50,863 nucleotides of DNA, from NCBI GenBank assembly GCA_027618565.1, contig JAQCEQ010000021.1:1-50863 (forward strand). The letters are read 5' to 3'. How positions within the stretch are numbered: position 1 is the first letter of the stretch; the number at the start of each line of letters is the position of its first letter. Positions 30,776 to 43,008 of the stretch are shown one piece after another. The notes under the pieces were generated by a model that worked only from the letters and a program-made list of their open reading frames with translations, did not search any database and was not told the origin of the DNA. A program made the translations under genes and the position numbers. The stretch is from Planctomycetota bacterium. Its GTDB lineage: Bacteria > Planctomycetota > Phycisphaerae > Phycisphaerales > SM1A02.

Positions 30776-31411
30776 ATGCGCGCCATCCTCGCCGAACTCA
30801 TCGGGACCTATTTCCTCGTCTTGGTGGTTGGCCTCGTGGCGGGAGGCATCGCCCCTGCCGAGTGGGCACCCATCGCGATCGCCAGCGTCCTCTGCGTCTG
30901 CGTCTGCGCGTTCGGGCACGCCAGTGGCGCCCACTTCAATCCGGCGGTTTCCGTGGCGGTGTGGCTCCGAAAGCGGATCGGCGTCGCCAGGCTCGTGGCC
31001 TACATCGTGGCGCAGCTGGCGGGTGCGTACCTGGCCGTCCTCACCTGCTCGCTCCTGGACGCCTGGTCGGCACCTGGTCCGCTGGCACTGGCGGGGTCCA
31101 GCCAGATCGTCCTCGCGGAGTCCCTGTTCACGTTCCTCCTGGTCACCGTCATCTTGAATGTCGCAGCCACGAAGGGAACGGAGGGGAATCAGTATTTCCC
31201 ATTCGCAATCGCCGGGACCGTCCTCGCGGGCGCGATCTGCGTCGGGTCTGTCTCCGGGGCGGTGTTCAACCCCGCCGTGGGGACGGGCTTGGTGGCGATG
31301 GGGGCCCTCCCAAGCGCAAAACTGATCCTGTTCATCGCCAGCCAACTCGTTGGCGCAATCGTCGCTGCTTGGGTGCACGGGGTCATGGAGACGACAGAAG
31401 TCGGCCGCTGA
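30776..31411 (+). CDS. Aquaporin-family channel (MIP)
   Basis: Six-helix MIP channel for water or small neutral solutes. The two asparagine boxes are GAHFNPAVSVAVW and GAVFNPAVGTGLV. In classical aquaporins and glyceroporins an Arg follows the second NPA and forms the selectivity filter; here that place is Val. Length 211 is close to AqpZ. Helices include LIGTYFLVLVVGLVAGGI and IVLAESLFTFLLVTVILNV. It stands alone, with an intrinsic terminator about 60 bases after its stop. Confidence 0.88.
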   Translation: MRAILAELIGTYFLVLVVGLVAGGIAPAEWAPIAIASVLCVCVCAFGHASGAHFNPAVSVAVWLRKRIGVARLVAYIVAQLAGAYLAVLTCSLLDAWSAPGPLALAGSSQIVLAESLFTFLLVTVILNVAATKGTEGNQYFPFAIAGTVLAGAICVGSVSGAVFNPAVGTGLVAMGALPSAKLILFIASQLVGAIVAAWVHGVMETTEVGR

Positions 31412-31428
31412 GCACGGTGGAGGCTCCG

Positions 31429-31452
31429 GCGTCAGCCGTCGCGTCAGCCGTC
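31429..31452. repeat. 12-bp perfect tandem duplication
   Basis: GCGTCAGCCGTC is present twice in direct succession, 18 bases after the aquaporin stop. Probably slippage; no function seen. Confidence 0.8.
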
Positions 31453-31469
31453 GTTGGAAAGATGGGAAT

Positions 31470-31491
31470 CGACCGTTTTTCGGTCGTTTTT
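31470..31491 (+). terminator. Intrinsic terminator after the aquaporin gene
   Basis: CGACCG (31470-31475) and CGGTCG (31481-31486) flank a TTTTT loop, and TTTTT follows the stem. This is a textbook rho-independent terminator on the plus strand. It faces the converging isc operon. Confidence 0.85.
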
Positions 31492-31516
31492 CATCGCGCC
31501 AACCGGGCAGGCCGGC

Positions 31517-31903
31517 CTATCCCGAGAAGGACGACCCGCATCCGCAGGTCGAGGTCGCGTTGGGGTTGTTGAAGACGAACCCACGACCCATGATCTCGTC
31601 CTTGAAGTCGACCGTCGTGCCATTGAGGTAGAGGTAGCTCTTGGGGTCGCAGACGAGGCGCACGCTGAACGGCTCGCCGATGGTGCCCTCGGGCGTGTCC
31701 TTGGCCGCGCGGCGGTGGTAGTCAAACTGCCAGAGCTCGTCGCTCTCCTTGGTCACCTCCGTGAGGTCCAGCAGGTACGAAAAACCAGAGCAACCACCGC
31801 CCTTGACGCCAACGCGCAGGGCAATCCTGGCACGATCCAACCCCTGCTGGCCAATGATGGTGTCGATCTCTCTGGCGGCGTTCTCGGTCACGGTCACGGG
31901 CAT
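31517..31903 (-). CDS. iscA: A-type iron-sulfur carrier protein
   Basis: Fe-S carrier that takes clusters from IscU to client proteins. The three conserved cysteines are in VKGGGCSGFSY and STCGCGSSF. FVFNNPNATSTCGCG is the typical C-terminal block. Length 128 is above the usual 107, mainly from an insert (YHRRAAKDTPEGTIG). It lies 20 bases after iscU and ends the iscSUA transcript. The gene could equally be named erpA; context favours iscA. Confidence 0.92.
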   Translation of the reverse strand: MPVTVTENAAREIDTIIGQQGLDRARIALRVGVKGGGCSGFSYLLDLTEVTKESDELWQFDYHRRAAKDTPEGTIGEPFSVRLVCDPKSYLYLNGTTVDFKDEIMGRGFVFNNPNATSTCGCGSSFSG

Positions 31904-31923
31904 CGATTCGATCTCCTCGGTGG

Positions 31924-32367
31924 TCAGGCGGTGGTGGTGGTGGTGGGAGCAGTCGTTGCTGCATCAGCCGCACCAGGGTTCTTCTTCTTCCAGTCCTCAA
32001 TGGCAGCGCGGATCGAGTCCTCCGCCAGCACGGAACAGTGGATCTTCACCGGCGGAAGGGCCAGTTCCTCGACAATCTTGGTGTTCTTGATGGTCAACGC
32101 GTCATCGACGGTCCGGCCGCGAATCCACTCGGTAGCCAGGCTGCTGCTGGCGATCGCCGAACCGCAGCCGAAACACTTGAACTTGGCCTCCTCAATGCGT
32201 CCCTCTGAACTCACCCGGATCTGGAGCTGCATGACATCCCCGCACTCCGGCGCTCCCACAATGCCAACGCCGATATCCTTGCGCTCCTTGACCTCGCCCG
32301 AAGTGCCGAATGCACCCACATTGCGCGGGTGCTTGTAGTGGTCGATGACTTTTTCGCTGTAGGCCAT
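31924..32367 (-). CDS. iscU: Iron-sulfur cluster scaffold protein
   Basis: Scaffold on which IscS builds [2Fe-2S] clusters. The three Cys and the Asp are present: GAPECGDVMQLQI, KFKCFGCGSAIASSSL and KIHCSVLAED. The start MAYSEKVIDHYKHPRNVGAF at 32367 has a GAGGAA box; the frame further upstream lacks homology. LPPVKIHCS matches the chaperone (HscA) recognition motif LPPVK, though no hscA or hscB is nearby. The tail is a short Thr/Ala run (TTAPTTTTTA). Length 147 compares with 128 in E. coli. Confidence 0.94.
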   Translation of the reverse strand: MAYSEKVIDHYKHPRNVGAFGTSGEVKERKDIGVGIVGAPECGDVMQLQIRVSSEGRIEEAKFKCFGCGSAIASSSLATEWIRGRTVDDALTIKNTKIVEELALPPVKIHCSVLAEDSIRAAIEDWKKKNPGAADAATTAPTTTTTA

Positions 32368-32425
32368 GGTGTGTTCCTCAGTCGTCGGGCTTGCGCCCCA
32401 AGGCCGCAAAATCGGCCGTGAATCT

Positions 32426-32500
32426 CTCAAGCGGGCGCAGTCCCGCGTGTCTCAAGCGGGCGCAGTCCCGCGTGTCTCAAGCGGGCGCAGTCCCGCGTGT
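32426..32500 (-). repeat. Three perfect 25-bp hairpin repeats between iscS and iscU
   Basis: The unit CTCAAGCGGGCGCAGTCCCG plus CGTGT occurs three times without a change, at 32426-32450, 32451-32475 and 32476-32500. Each copy contains GCGGG and CCCGC arms around a six-base loop, so the iscS-iscU transcript could form three consecutive hairpins. The array starts two bases after the iscS stop. The 135-base iscS-iscU gap is unusual for this operon. It is not a CRISPR array: there are no spacers. Confidence 0.9.
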
Positions 32501-32502
32501 GT

Positions 32503-33744
32503 CTAGTGCTGTTGCCACTCGATCTTGCTGATGTCGATGCCTTCCTTGTGCAGGTCGTAGAGCGGGCTCATCGCGCGGAGGTGATTCACCGCAGCGGTGA
32601 TGGACGTGATCGCGTGACCGACTTCCGCCTCGGTCGTCCATCGCCCAAACGAGAGCCGAAGCGAGGAGTGCGCAAGCTCATCGCCCACGCCGAGCCCCTT
32701 GAGCACATACGACGGCTCCAAGCTGGCGCTGGTGCAGGCGGATCCGCTGGAGCACGCGATCTCGGCGATGCCCATCATCAGGCTCTCGCCCTCGACGAAG
32801 CCGAAGGAGATGTTGCTGATGTGTGGCACGCGCTTGGTCGAGTGCCCATTCACCTGGACGACATCCATCGCGCTTGTCAAGCCGGCCTCCAGACGGTTGC
32901 GCAGACCCAGCAATCGCTGGCGCTCCGCATCCCCCCCGGCGGCACACAGTTCGCAGGCCTTGCCAAACCCGACGATGCCCGTCACATTCTGCGTGCCCGA
33001 GCGCATGCCGCGCTCCTGCCCGCCACCGTCCACCAGCGCCTCCAGTCGGACGCGCGGGCGTCGGCGGCGCACATAGAGCCCGCCCACCCCCTTGGGACCG
33101 TAGATCTTGTGGCTGCTCCACGAGAGAAGGTCGATGTGGTCGGCCTCGACATCGACCGGCATCTTGCCCGCCCATTGTGTCGCATCGGTATGGAAGATGA
33201 TGTCCCGCTCGTGGCAGAGTGCTCCGATCTGCGGCACTTCGTTGATGGTCCCGATCTCGTTGTTGGTCCACATCACCGTGACGAGAATCGTGTCGGGTCG
33301 CAGGGCGGCCTCGACCATCGCTCTGGTGATGATGCCGTCGGTCCCCGGTTCCAGGAAGGTGACCTCGAACCCCTCGCGCTGGAGCCGCTTGCACGGATCC
33401 AGCACCGCCTTGTGCTCGATGATGTCGGTGATGACGTGACCGCGGCCCGGCGATCCCGCAGGCGCCTTGGCGTAGAGGTTGGCGGTGCCGCGAATCGCCA
33501 GGTTGTTGCTCTCGGTGGCGCCCGAGGTGAAGATGACCTCCTTCGGCTGGGCACCCAGCAGCGCCGCGCACTGTTCACGCGCACGCTCGATCGCATCCTC
33601 GGACTCCCAGCCGAATCGATGGTTTCGACTCCCGGCGTTTCCGTACTGATCGCAGAAATAGGGGAGCATGGCCTCCAGCACCCGTGGATCGCAACGAGTC
33701 GTCGCTGCGTTGTCCAGATAGATCATGGCGGGTGGGACGGTCAT
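32503..33744 (-). CDS. iscS: Cysteine desulfurase
   Basis: PLP enzyme that delivers sulfur from cysteine to IscU and other acceptors. IYLDNAATTRCDPRVLEAML is the start of the fold, SGATESNNLAIRG and IIEHKAVLDPC hold cofactor contacts, SSHKIYGPKGVG has the PLP Lys, and CSSGSACTSASLEPSYVLKG has the catalytic Cys. The C-terminus (DLHKEGIDISKIEWQQH) matches classic IscS. MTVPPAM is used; Met7 is an alternative start. Length 413. It is the first gene of iscSUA; there is no IscR gene beside it. Confidence 0.96.
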   Translation of the reverse strand: MTVPPAMIYLDNAATTRCDPRVLEAMLPYFCDQYGNAGSRNHRFGWESEDAIERAREQCAALLGAQPKEVIFTSGATESNNLAIRGTANLYAKAPAGSPGRGHVITDIIEHKAVLDPCKRLQREGFEVTFLEPGTDGIITRAMVEAALRPDTILVTVMWTNNEIGTINEVPQIGALCHERDIIFHTDATQWAGKMPVDVEADHIDLLSWSSHKIYGPKGVGGLYVRRRRPRVRLEALVDGGGQERGMRSGTQNVTGIVGFGKACELCAAGGDAERQRLLGLRNRLEAGLTSAMDVVQVNGHSTKRVPHISNISFGFVEGESLMMGIAEIACSSGSACTSASLEPSYVLKGLGVGDELAHSSLRLSFGRWTTEAEVGHAITSITAAVNHLRAMSPLYDLHKEGIDISKIEWQQH

Positions 33745-33840
33745 GCTTGATCCAATCGATGTCGCCAGTCCAATAATCAGCGGGCAAGGTGTGGGCCTGC
33801 GATACTGACGCGCCGCAGGAGCCCCTCGAGAGCGCCCAGA

Positions 33841-33880
33841 AGTATAGGTGTTCCGTCCAGATATTGCGAACGATTCTCAA
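33841..33880 (-). promoter_or_regulatory. isc promoter with overlapping 17-bp palindrome
   Basis: On the minus strand TTCGCA (-35, 33870-33865) and TATACT (-10, 33846-33841) are 18 bases apart, about 90 bases before iscS. The palindrome TTGAGAATCGTTCGCAA (33864-33880) covers the -35; six of seven arm bases pair. A dyad at this spot is what an iron or Fe-S-sensing repressor would use. It has no clear match to a specific box I can name with certainty. Confidence 0.55.
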
Positions 33881-33912
33881 CGAAACTGCACCCGATTTCC
33901 CCCCTCTCACCC

Positions 33913-34773
33913 ATGCGACTCCTGAAATCCACCCACGATTGCCTGTCCGTCCACGGCTGCGCGCTGGTCCCCACGATGGGGGCTCTTCATGAGGGCCACC
34001 TCGCGCTGTGCCGCCATGCGGCCGAGACGGGACACCACGTAGTTGTGTCGATCTTCGTCAATCCCACCCAGTTTGGGCCGCGGGAAGACTTTCACCGGTA
34101 TCCGCGAACGCTGGAGGCCGACCTCACTGCCTTGCGTTCTCTTGGCACGCCTCCGGTGGCCGTCTTTCTGCCCGGCATTGAGACCGTGTATCCACGCGGG
34201 CTCGAAGCTGCGCGAGAAGAAGCCATGGCGCTCCTTCTTCCCCCCACCGCGACCCAGCCCGCACTGGAGGATCGATGCCGTCCGGGGCACCTGGCAGGAG
34301 TGATCCAGGTCGTCGGGCGACTCTTCGACCTCTGCCGCCCGGCCACCGCCGTGTTTGGCGAAAAGGACTTCCAACAACTTCGGGTGATCGAGGACATGGT
34401 CGCCGGAGATCCGGCACGGTTCGGCACGTTGCTCATTCACCGGAGCCCGACGGCTCGTGAACCCGATGGGCTGGCGATGAGCAGTCGCAATCGATTCCTC
34501 GACGCGTCGCAGCGAGAACGGGCGCGTGCGCTTTGGGACGCGCTGTGCCTTGCGAGGCACTCGCCGAACGTCACGCACGCCGAGGAATCCATGAGGGACA
34601 CGCTCCTGCAGCACGGCCTGGAACCCGAATACGCCGTCGCCCGGCCGGCCACCTCGCTCCTCGCGGCATGCGACATCGATCCGGTTGGCCCCTGCCGTGC
34701 CCTCATCGCCGCCCGCCTGGGGTCCGTACGCTTGATTGACAACGCCGCGTGGTCCCCCTCCGCAACCGCCTAA
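33913..34773 (+). CDS. panC: Pantothenate synthetase
   Basis: Joins pantoate and beta-alanine with ATP in the coenzyme A pathway. PTMGALHEGHLALCRHA carries the HxGH motif, and VNPTQFGPREDFHRYPRTLE, VFGEKDFQQLRVIEDMV and REPDGLAMSSRNRFLD carry the ATP- and pantoate-binding residues. Length 286 is normal. It is divergent from the isc operon and only nine bases before the next gene, so the two may share a transcript. No strong Shine-Dalgarno precedes the ATG. Confidence 0.95.
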   Translation: MRLLKSTHDCLSVHGCALVPTMGALHEGHLALCRHAAETGHHVVVSIFVNPTQFGPREDFHRYPRTLEADLTALRSLGTPPVAVFLPGIETVYPRGLEAAREEAMALLLPPTATQPALEDRCRPGHLAGVIQVVGRLFDLCRPATAVFGEKDFQQLRVIEDMVAGDPARFGTLLIHRSPTAREPDGLAMSSRNRFLDASQRERARALWDALCLARHSPNVTHAEESMRDTLLQHGLEPEYAVARPATSLLAACDIDPVGPCRALIAARLGSVRLIDNAAWSPSATA

Positions 34774-37997: not shown

Positions 37998-38027
37998 GTC
38001 TAACGATGTCTAACGATGTCTAACGAT
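37998..38027. repeat. 10-bp tandem repeat, three copies
   Basis: TCTAACGATG is repeated three times exactly, just upstream of the methyltransferase start on the minus strand. It may affect the leader length or simply be slippage. Confidence 0.8.
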
Positions 38028-38050
38028 GCCGCACCACGCTCATACCCACC

Positions 38051-42928: not shown

Positions 42929-43008
42929 TGAGGGTGTCCTTGCGACTGCGTCGAGGCTGGCGTAGCGACTACGTCAGGGTCGTCGTGGCGACGGCGGCGA
43001 CCACCCGT

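Follow-up and report, generated by a model that had tools for sequence, protein, structure and literature searches.

Here we report an analysis of a short tandem repeat inside an isc operon of a Planctomycetota bacterium from the order Phycisphaerales. The window, that is, the whole stretch of DNA that was analysed, comprises 50,863 nucleotides of contig JAQCEQ010000021.1 (assembly GCA_027618565.1). On its minus strand it encodes iscS, iscU and an iscA/erpA-type gene, and the 135-nt gap between the first two (iscS end 32503, iscU start 32367) carries the following features, given with their neighbouring genes from 5' to 3' of the coding strand.

32503..33744, minus strand: iscS, cysteine desulfurase, first gene (NF010611, over cut-off)
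32475..32499, minus strand: repeat unit 1, CACGCGGGACTGCGCCCGCTTGAGA, hairpin GCGGG/CCCGC, closest to the iscS stop (repeat finder, copy search and skeleton scan)
32450..32474, minus strand: repeat unit 2, identical to unit 1 (repeat finder, copy search and skeleton scan)
32425..32449, minus strand: repeat unit 3, identical to unit 1 (repeat finder, copy search and skeleton scan)
32401..32420, minus strand: putative divergent fourth copy, CACG-GCCG-ATTTTG-CGGC-CT(TGGGG) (skeleton scan)
32387..32398, minus strand: fifth small hairpin, GGGC-GCAA-GCCC (span-limited fold; absent from the unrestricted fold)
32375..32379, minus strand: possible Shine-Dalgarno sequence GAGGA of iscU, downstream of all hairpins (read from the sequence)
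31924..32367, minus strand: iscU, Fe-S scaffold, second gene (TIGR01999, over cut-off; start set by homology)
31517..31903, minus strand: iscA/erpA-type gene, third gene (TIGR00049, over cut-off)

The ORF picker extended iscU to an earlier TTG, and the hairpin at 32401-32420 was therefore marked as coding; we use the homology-based start at 32367. The four nearest named IscS contigs (71-75% identity) are three MAGs of Phycisphaerae/Phycisphaerales and one uncultured bacterium. In 25 of 30 loci of relatives, window included, iscU lies 3' of iscS on the same strand, and the other five are without an iscU match. The only promoter-like site in the region 31300-34000 lies above iscS, and none falls within the iscS-iscU gap.

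Tandem Repeats Finder called 32425-32500 as an array of period 25 with 3.0 copies, 100% match and a score of 152, the top score among nine tandem arrays of the window. This is the array that the initial annotation had given, one base shifted, as three unchanged copies at 32426-32500, and its placement there, just past the iscS stop and before iscU, also held: the IscS and IscU proteins both exceed their NCBIfam cut-offs, the array begins 3 bases past the stop codon, and the first hairpin begins 6 bases past it. With up to three mismatches allowed, the window contains exactly three copies of the 25-bp unit, a number reached in none of 100 dinucleotide shuffles, and a search of the whole genome (2,256,831 bases in 62 contigs) found these copies at this one site and nowhere else at that tolerance. 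The three copies can each fold into a GCGGG/CCCGC hairpin. The GCGGG-6-CCCGC hairpin alone is not rare for the composition, with 8 occurrences at one mismatch or fewer versus 13 expected from shuffling; the unusual feature of this gap is the exact tandem repetition. All three hairpins named initially are present, but that list was incomplete, and we added those at 32401-32420 and 32387-32398. The former has the base, loop frame and closing C of the unit but other bases on both sides of the three middle stem pairs, and it looks like an old fourth copy. The units are followed by TTGAGA, no T-run occurs after any copy, and a terminator scan of the gap returned nothing terminator-like. No Rfam family matched the window at its gathering score; at E-values up to 10 the only match was isrK, on the opposite strand and at chance level (11.7 bits versus the 50 needed). 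A plasmid collection searched with the iscS-iscU gap gave no match.

Comparison with relatives showed that copy number at this site varies within the genus. The sister species (G001; IscS 92% identical) carries CACGCGGGCCTGCGCCCGCCTGAGA once, followed by CACGCGGGA, which is cut off before the iscU Shine-Dalgarno sequence, and thus has one full unit and a truncated second one at the same place; in a third species of the genus (G002) the gap is 39 nt long and holds neither unit. The copy number at iscS-iscU thus changes fast, and the recent expansion suggested by the initial annotation gains support. Among the 25 iscS-iscU gaps compared by eye, window included, the isc-type unit occurs in only the window genome (G000) and the sister species. 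Hairpins of other kinds are more widespread in this gap. In 10 of the group's 28 loci the best single hairpin beat shuffled sequences (p<=0.05), versus 1.4 expected at 5% (median p 0.22), although these loci are not independent, two of them (L011 and L038) being probably one genome and several coming from species of one genus; the hairpins that beat shuffles in other gaps of the group are unrelated to the window unit. A weaker excess was found in bacteria outside the group (10 of 68 loci versus 3.4 expected; median p 0.56), and the same test applied to the iscU-iscA gap was positive in 3 of 26 group loci and 16 of 58 other bacterial loci.

The folding of the gap depends on the span of pairing that is allowed. 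When pairs are limited to 30 nt, the minimum-energy fold is a ladder of hairpins (-50.4 kcal/mol), as had been proposed for the mRNA; in the unrestricted fold, however, the three copies pair with other partners, and a long-range structure is preferred (-58.1 versus -47.1 kcal/mol for the bare ladder). Because of this difference, the ladder is likely only if the hairpins form while the RNA emerges. The gap is more stable than its dinucleotide shuffles (z -3.3, 0 of 200), and a 163-nt stretch reaching 38 nt into iscS is less so (z -1.9, 10 of 200 shuffles). The gap stands out only as a whole, its best single hairpin giving a p of 0.49 because the stems are only 5 bp long. Over 24 iscS-iscU gaps (one of the 25 was omitted for length) the mean folding z was -0.59, with four gaps below -1.5. 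In the predicted folds, the isc unit, with 5 pairs, has the C below its stem in a 1x1 mismatch, and the 6-pair tmRNA units of the window genome and the sister species described below have it as a bulge.

Hairpins of the same skeleton lie downstream of the tmRNA gene. In the window genome, two hairpins CACG-GCGCG-ACTTTG-CGCGC-CTGG follow the tmRNA, which faces a TolC-like gene with convergent ends. The sister species has the same hairpin with the loop ACTTCG, three times to the end of each of two contigs; these contigs, G001:C55 and G001:C73 (L297 and L296), both end inside the hairpin array, which probably breaks the assembly. In a genome from another genus (G046), the identical 20-nt core occurs within a 32-bp tandem array directly after the tmRNA, which was recognized by Rfam RF00023 (108.4 bits), ARAGORN having found no tmRNA in that locus (L116). 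Besides the window genome, G046 is the only one with the identical core among 181 genomes of the family and 400 of the order (overlapping sets). A tmRNA over the cut-off was found in 14 of 19 genomes of the G046 genus; past the CCA end, ten of them carry one or more units of the form [CT]ACG-4-6-4-C, nine in tandem, and four carry none. In a set of 24 tmRNA loci, the repeat program called tandem repeats within 300 nt on the downstream side in 12 and on the upstream side in none. Two further loci lacked a located 3' end and were dropped; G008, which belongs to the 24, is covered for only 2 nt past the gene, the positive locus of G059 has a different repeat 220 nt away, and the program missed the tmRNA copies of G000 and G062. 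Tandem hairpin arrays with differing units were also seen right after tmRNA in several genera of the family (L206, L207, L144-L157, L211, L214), and in the array of G017 the arms seem, by eye, to change together (GATGATTT/AAATCATC and GATAATTT/AAATTATC). The arrays of G046, G056 and G058 contain degenerate partial copies and mosaics.

A third site lies between a rhodanese-like gene and atpG, which converge. In the window genome the gap opens 3 bases past the stop codon with CACG-CTCG-ACTGCG-CGGG-CTGG and includes an array of three 26-bp units (G000:C8 36201-36278); the sister species has two such units, and its first hairpin is mispaired. The succession of a skeleton hairpin and 26-bp hairpin units was located at L252:16176-16278 (G000:C8) and at L295 about 1716-1805 (G001:C25). 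The rarity of such sites was assessed in a sample of 753,328 bases of the window genome (40 stretches and the window), where greedy ORF picks called 93% of the sequence coding and probably overcall. Repeats with a period of 16-110 gave 40 rows, some overlapping, and only three lay mostly outside called genes: one in L240, which is without a hairpin, the window array, and the array next to the rhodanese-like gene. A skeleton scan of the same sample yielded eight hits, seven of them 3' of genes (four at iscS, two at tmRNA, one at the rhodanese-like gene) and one intragenic; the script itself flagged six of the eight as non-coding, the fourth isc copy having been miscounted via the extended iscU ORF.

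Across the whole window genome, a loose version of the skeleton matched 44 times, at 42 distinct places, versus 14 matches of the reversed control. A perfect stem of at least 5 bp was found at seven of these 42 places, all on the sense strand just 3' of iscS, tmRNA or the rhodanese-like gene, a result that tests absence elsewhere and is not an independent discovery, as the isc and tmRNA copies had served to define the skeleton and the rhodanese copy was already known. In the sister species, perfect stems occur at seven of 43 places, one at isc and six at tmRNA on the two contig ends; the stem filter covered these two genomes. Loose matches versus reversed controls were 47 and 16 in the sister species, 29 and 12 in G060, 14 and 10 in the third species of the genus, 9 and 10 in G003, and 10 and 13 in G046.

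Searches of larger genome sets gave less specific results. With up to three mismatches, the 25-mer matched 18 of 181 family genomes, those besides G001 and G046 at two or three mismatches. At one mismatch or fewer, the 20-nt core was found in three of 400 order genomes (G000, G046, and G364 with one single-mismatch place). Two GCGGG-6-CCCGC hairpins within 30 nt were present in three of the 181 genomes (G000, G046 and G005) versus two for the reversed control. A strict tandem skeleton, too narrow in that it misses the window genome's own tmRNA hairpins, matched 7 of 17 chosen genomes versus none for the control, and 12 of the 400 order genomes, namely the window genome, eight genomes of genus g36, in each of which the match adjoins tmRNA, and G104, G111 and G349. 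The last three were set aside, as their strings look repetitive and are probably coding. The reversed strict skeleton matches seven of the same 400 genomes, so the count by itself says little, and it is position that carries the argument.

The stems of the collected units covary, imperfectly. The set comprised 24 distinct 20-nt units from two genera, with the longer-stemmed tmRNA units of G000 and G001 omitted; the collecting pattern fixed the base letters and part of the loop but not the stem letters, and relatedness among the units inflates the significance given by the shuffles. In the five-pair stem, 82.5% of cells were paired versus 70.4 in shuffles, 14 cells were changed on both sides versus 6.3, and the covariation score was 0.292 versus 0.130, each value being reached in 0 of 500 shuffles; controls slid along the sequence scored at most 0.112. 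Two of the five measures were weaker: pairs changed on both sides numbered 4 versus 2.8 (28 of 500), and further pair types 7 versus 4.8 (33 of 500). In 11 of the 24 units the stem contains one or two mispairs, chiefly CTCG/CTCG, amounting to 21 of 120 cells.

Occurrence of the same skeleton after tmRNA and the rhodanese-like gene points to an element of RNA 3' ends and not to an isc-specific one, and a hairpin family with a putative 3'-end function appears to be common to the tmRNA, iscS and rhodanese-like gene ends of this lineage. A terminator is expected at convergent gene ends, and two of the three sites are of this kind; with the third inside an operon, this fits a module of RNA 3' ends. 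We give roughly even chances to the explanation that the iscS-iscU array is a local multi-copy version of a hairpin that in this lineage immediately follows a few transcript 3' ends (those of iscS, tmRNA and the rhodanese-like gene). Each unit would fold while the RNA emerges, with a CA/TG pair at its base, a C that is unpaired or mismatched, a stem of 5-6 bp and a 6-nt loop. At true transcript ends, the run of hairpins would itself form the 3' end: it would promote termination where no U-tract is present, stop 3'-to-5' exonucleases, or do both. Between iscS and iscU, such a run would be a leaky end, where some transcripts stop or are trimmed back, leaving iscS RNA more stable than iscU-iscA RNA, while read-through transcripts would still express iscU from its own Shine-Dalgarno sequence below the array. 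The array probably favours iscS over iscU-iscA. The effects proposed in the initial annotation, protection of iscS mRNA or lower iscU expression, are plausible and would agree with this layout. The first hairpin would often be covered by the terminating ribosome because it starts six bases past the iscS stop, and the second and third copies would be free, which could explain a benefit of having more than one copy. Copies may be gained or lost by slippage or recombination, and in this way the strength of the element would be tuned.

In the E. coli iscRSUA operon, an intercistronic 3' stabiliser hairpin reportedly favours the upstream gene, as described by Desnoyers in 2009. A comparable case is described in PMC5927463, where a 3' structure between malE and malF stabilises malE; as there, the hairpins reported here lie between genes of one operon and would favour the upstream gene. 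Cotranscription of iscS and iscU is presumed from their common strand, the 135-nt gap and the order kept in relatives. Unlike the malE-malF and iscRSUA stabilisers, the array is built from one unit repeated exactly in tandem, occupies the iscS-iscU gap, and has a predicted effect.

Evidence counted in favour of a 3'-end module includes the position at gene ends, the downstream bias of tmRNA repeats (12/24 versus 0/24), the covariation, the copy-number change and the hairpin excess in iscS-iscU gaps. Counted against it were the unrestricted fold, the p of 0.49 for the window gap, the modest mean folding z over 24 gaps, the mispaired units, the two weaker covariation measures, the weaker hairpin excess outside the group, and the restriction of the unit to the G000 and G001 gaps, together with the ordinary terminators of the window genome and a general rise of hairpins that extends to divergent gaps. 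U-run terminators were found in 13 of 132 same-strand gaps versus 2.4 in shuffles, in 4 of 52 convergent gaps versus 1.1, and in 0 of 67 divergent gaps versus 0.8, and hairpins of at least 6 bp are mildly raised in all gap types (same-strand 60 versus 43.1, convergent 25 versus 18.9, divergent 31/67 versus 24.9).

The mispaired stems in 11 of 24 units, the exact identity of the copies combined with fast copy-number change at both isc and rhodanese/atpG, and the partial copies and mosaics of the G046, G056 and G058 arrays would also be expected from neutral expansion, in which a hairpin-forming stretch slipped and multiplied in a tolerant gap and its RNA structure has no selected role. We hold this account to be possible but rather unlikely: the same skeleton stands at three unrelated gene ends and, within the searched pattern, nowhere else with a perfect stem, the covariation exceeds both shuffles and slid controls, and the tandem repeats called near tmRNA are all on the downstream side.

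The hairpins might alternatively constitute a cluster-type intrinsic terminator that ends most iscS transcripts, with iscU-iscA expressed mainly from another start. Gupta and Pal (2021) described, in the sections of PMC8355165 on hairpin clusters, groups of several small, closely spaced hairpins soon past the stop codon that match RNA-seq ends without needing a U-tract. The array resembles these clusters in that its hairpins are spaced by less than 15 nt and lie no farther than 80 nt from the stop (the stems are 9 nt apart, and the third hairpin ends 72 nt past the iscS stop), and the related arrays sit where tmRNA should terminate. It differs in that the array lies inside an operon, and in that those sections do not present the clusters as a family of related sequences or as one unit repeated identically in tandem. 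A rule quoted in the same source places terminator hairpins at least 30 nt from the stop, and the first copy breaks it. A canonical intrinsic terminator is not seen either, with no immediate U-run after the hairpins and nothing from the terminator scan of the gap. Since the sole promoter-like site is above iscS and iscU follows iscS in all relatives with an iscU match, we judge this alternative improbable.

A binding site for a dedicated RNA-binding protein, such as a site for an aconitase resembling the iron-responsive element (IRE), with copies giving cooperativity, is very improbable in our estimate. It would explain the unpaired or mismatched C under a stem of 5-6 bp and the similar 6-nt loops at the isc, tmRNA and rhodanese sites; however, the collecting pattern itself partly accounts for the uniform base and for several shared loop letters of the 24 units, no Rfam family matched at gathering score, and tmRNA is not an iron gene. 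The IRE features listed in PMC8466369 are a C14-G18 pair, AGU at positions 15-17 and a pyrimidine at position 19. The isc unit shares with the IRE a C under a five-pair upper stem and a six-base loop, but its loop ACUGCG has no C14-G18 pair, no AGU, and a G at position 19, and membership in the IRE family was rejected on these loop features. An IRE has a bulged C at position 8, to be compared with the mismatched C of the isc unit and the bulged C of the tmRNA units. A mobile REP/BIME-type palindrome spread by a RAYT transposase is hardly credible and largely refuted for this genome: the short GC-rich palindromes do lie outside genes, in tandem, at several loci and also in another genus, and show paired stem changes like the REPs treated in PMC2817692, but they occupy three loci only and not a high copy number, are without the GT(A/G)G head described there 5' of the palindrome (by eye), run head to tail in one orientation where BIMEs alternate, and come with no Y1_Tnp match in G000, G001, G002 and G046, which are incomplete drafts.

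Intergenic tandem repeats of bacteria are commonly regarded as typing markers. In the group studied here, known in this analysis mostly from draft genomes, one such repeat can be traced across species at a single site, its stems covary, and matching arrays follow tmRNA. If its copies tune 3'-end formation, these genomes would supply natural variants with 0, 1, 2, 3 or more hairpins as a dose series, which would show the share of each hairpin in RNA protection or in termination without a U-tract. A bolder form of the 3'-end module, to which we attach little credence, is a new family of small 3'-end hairpins in Phycisphaerales-like bacteria, sharing an unpaired basal C and a similar loop, that is read by a dedicated factor and labels the ends of a few transcripts (tmRNA, iscS and the rhodanese-like gene), copy number being a fast-evolving dial on 3'-end formation; sulfur transfer and ribosome rescue would then share one RNA 3'-end code. 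Among the titles listed by literature searches, none describes identical tandem hairpins at these genes, the nearest being PMC8355165.

Several further repeats and a possible insertion were noted. The iscS-iscU gap of L012 (G038) measures 705 nt, and reading frames may have been inserted there into the isc operon. In G005 (L140, L011, L174-L177), tandem GCGGGGCTTGCCCCGC hairpins accompany a palindrome-rich iscS-iscU gap, and four Y1_Tnp matches, two of them over the cut-off, possibly belong to a REP/RAYT system. In the window itself, Tandem Repeats Finder called GTCTAACGAT at 37998-38028, repeated 3.1 times without change, and a degenerate 23-bp repeat with 2.7 copies at 42930-42992 contains the small inverted repeat GTAGCGACTAC.
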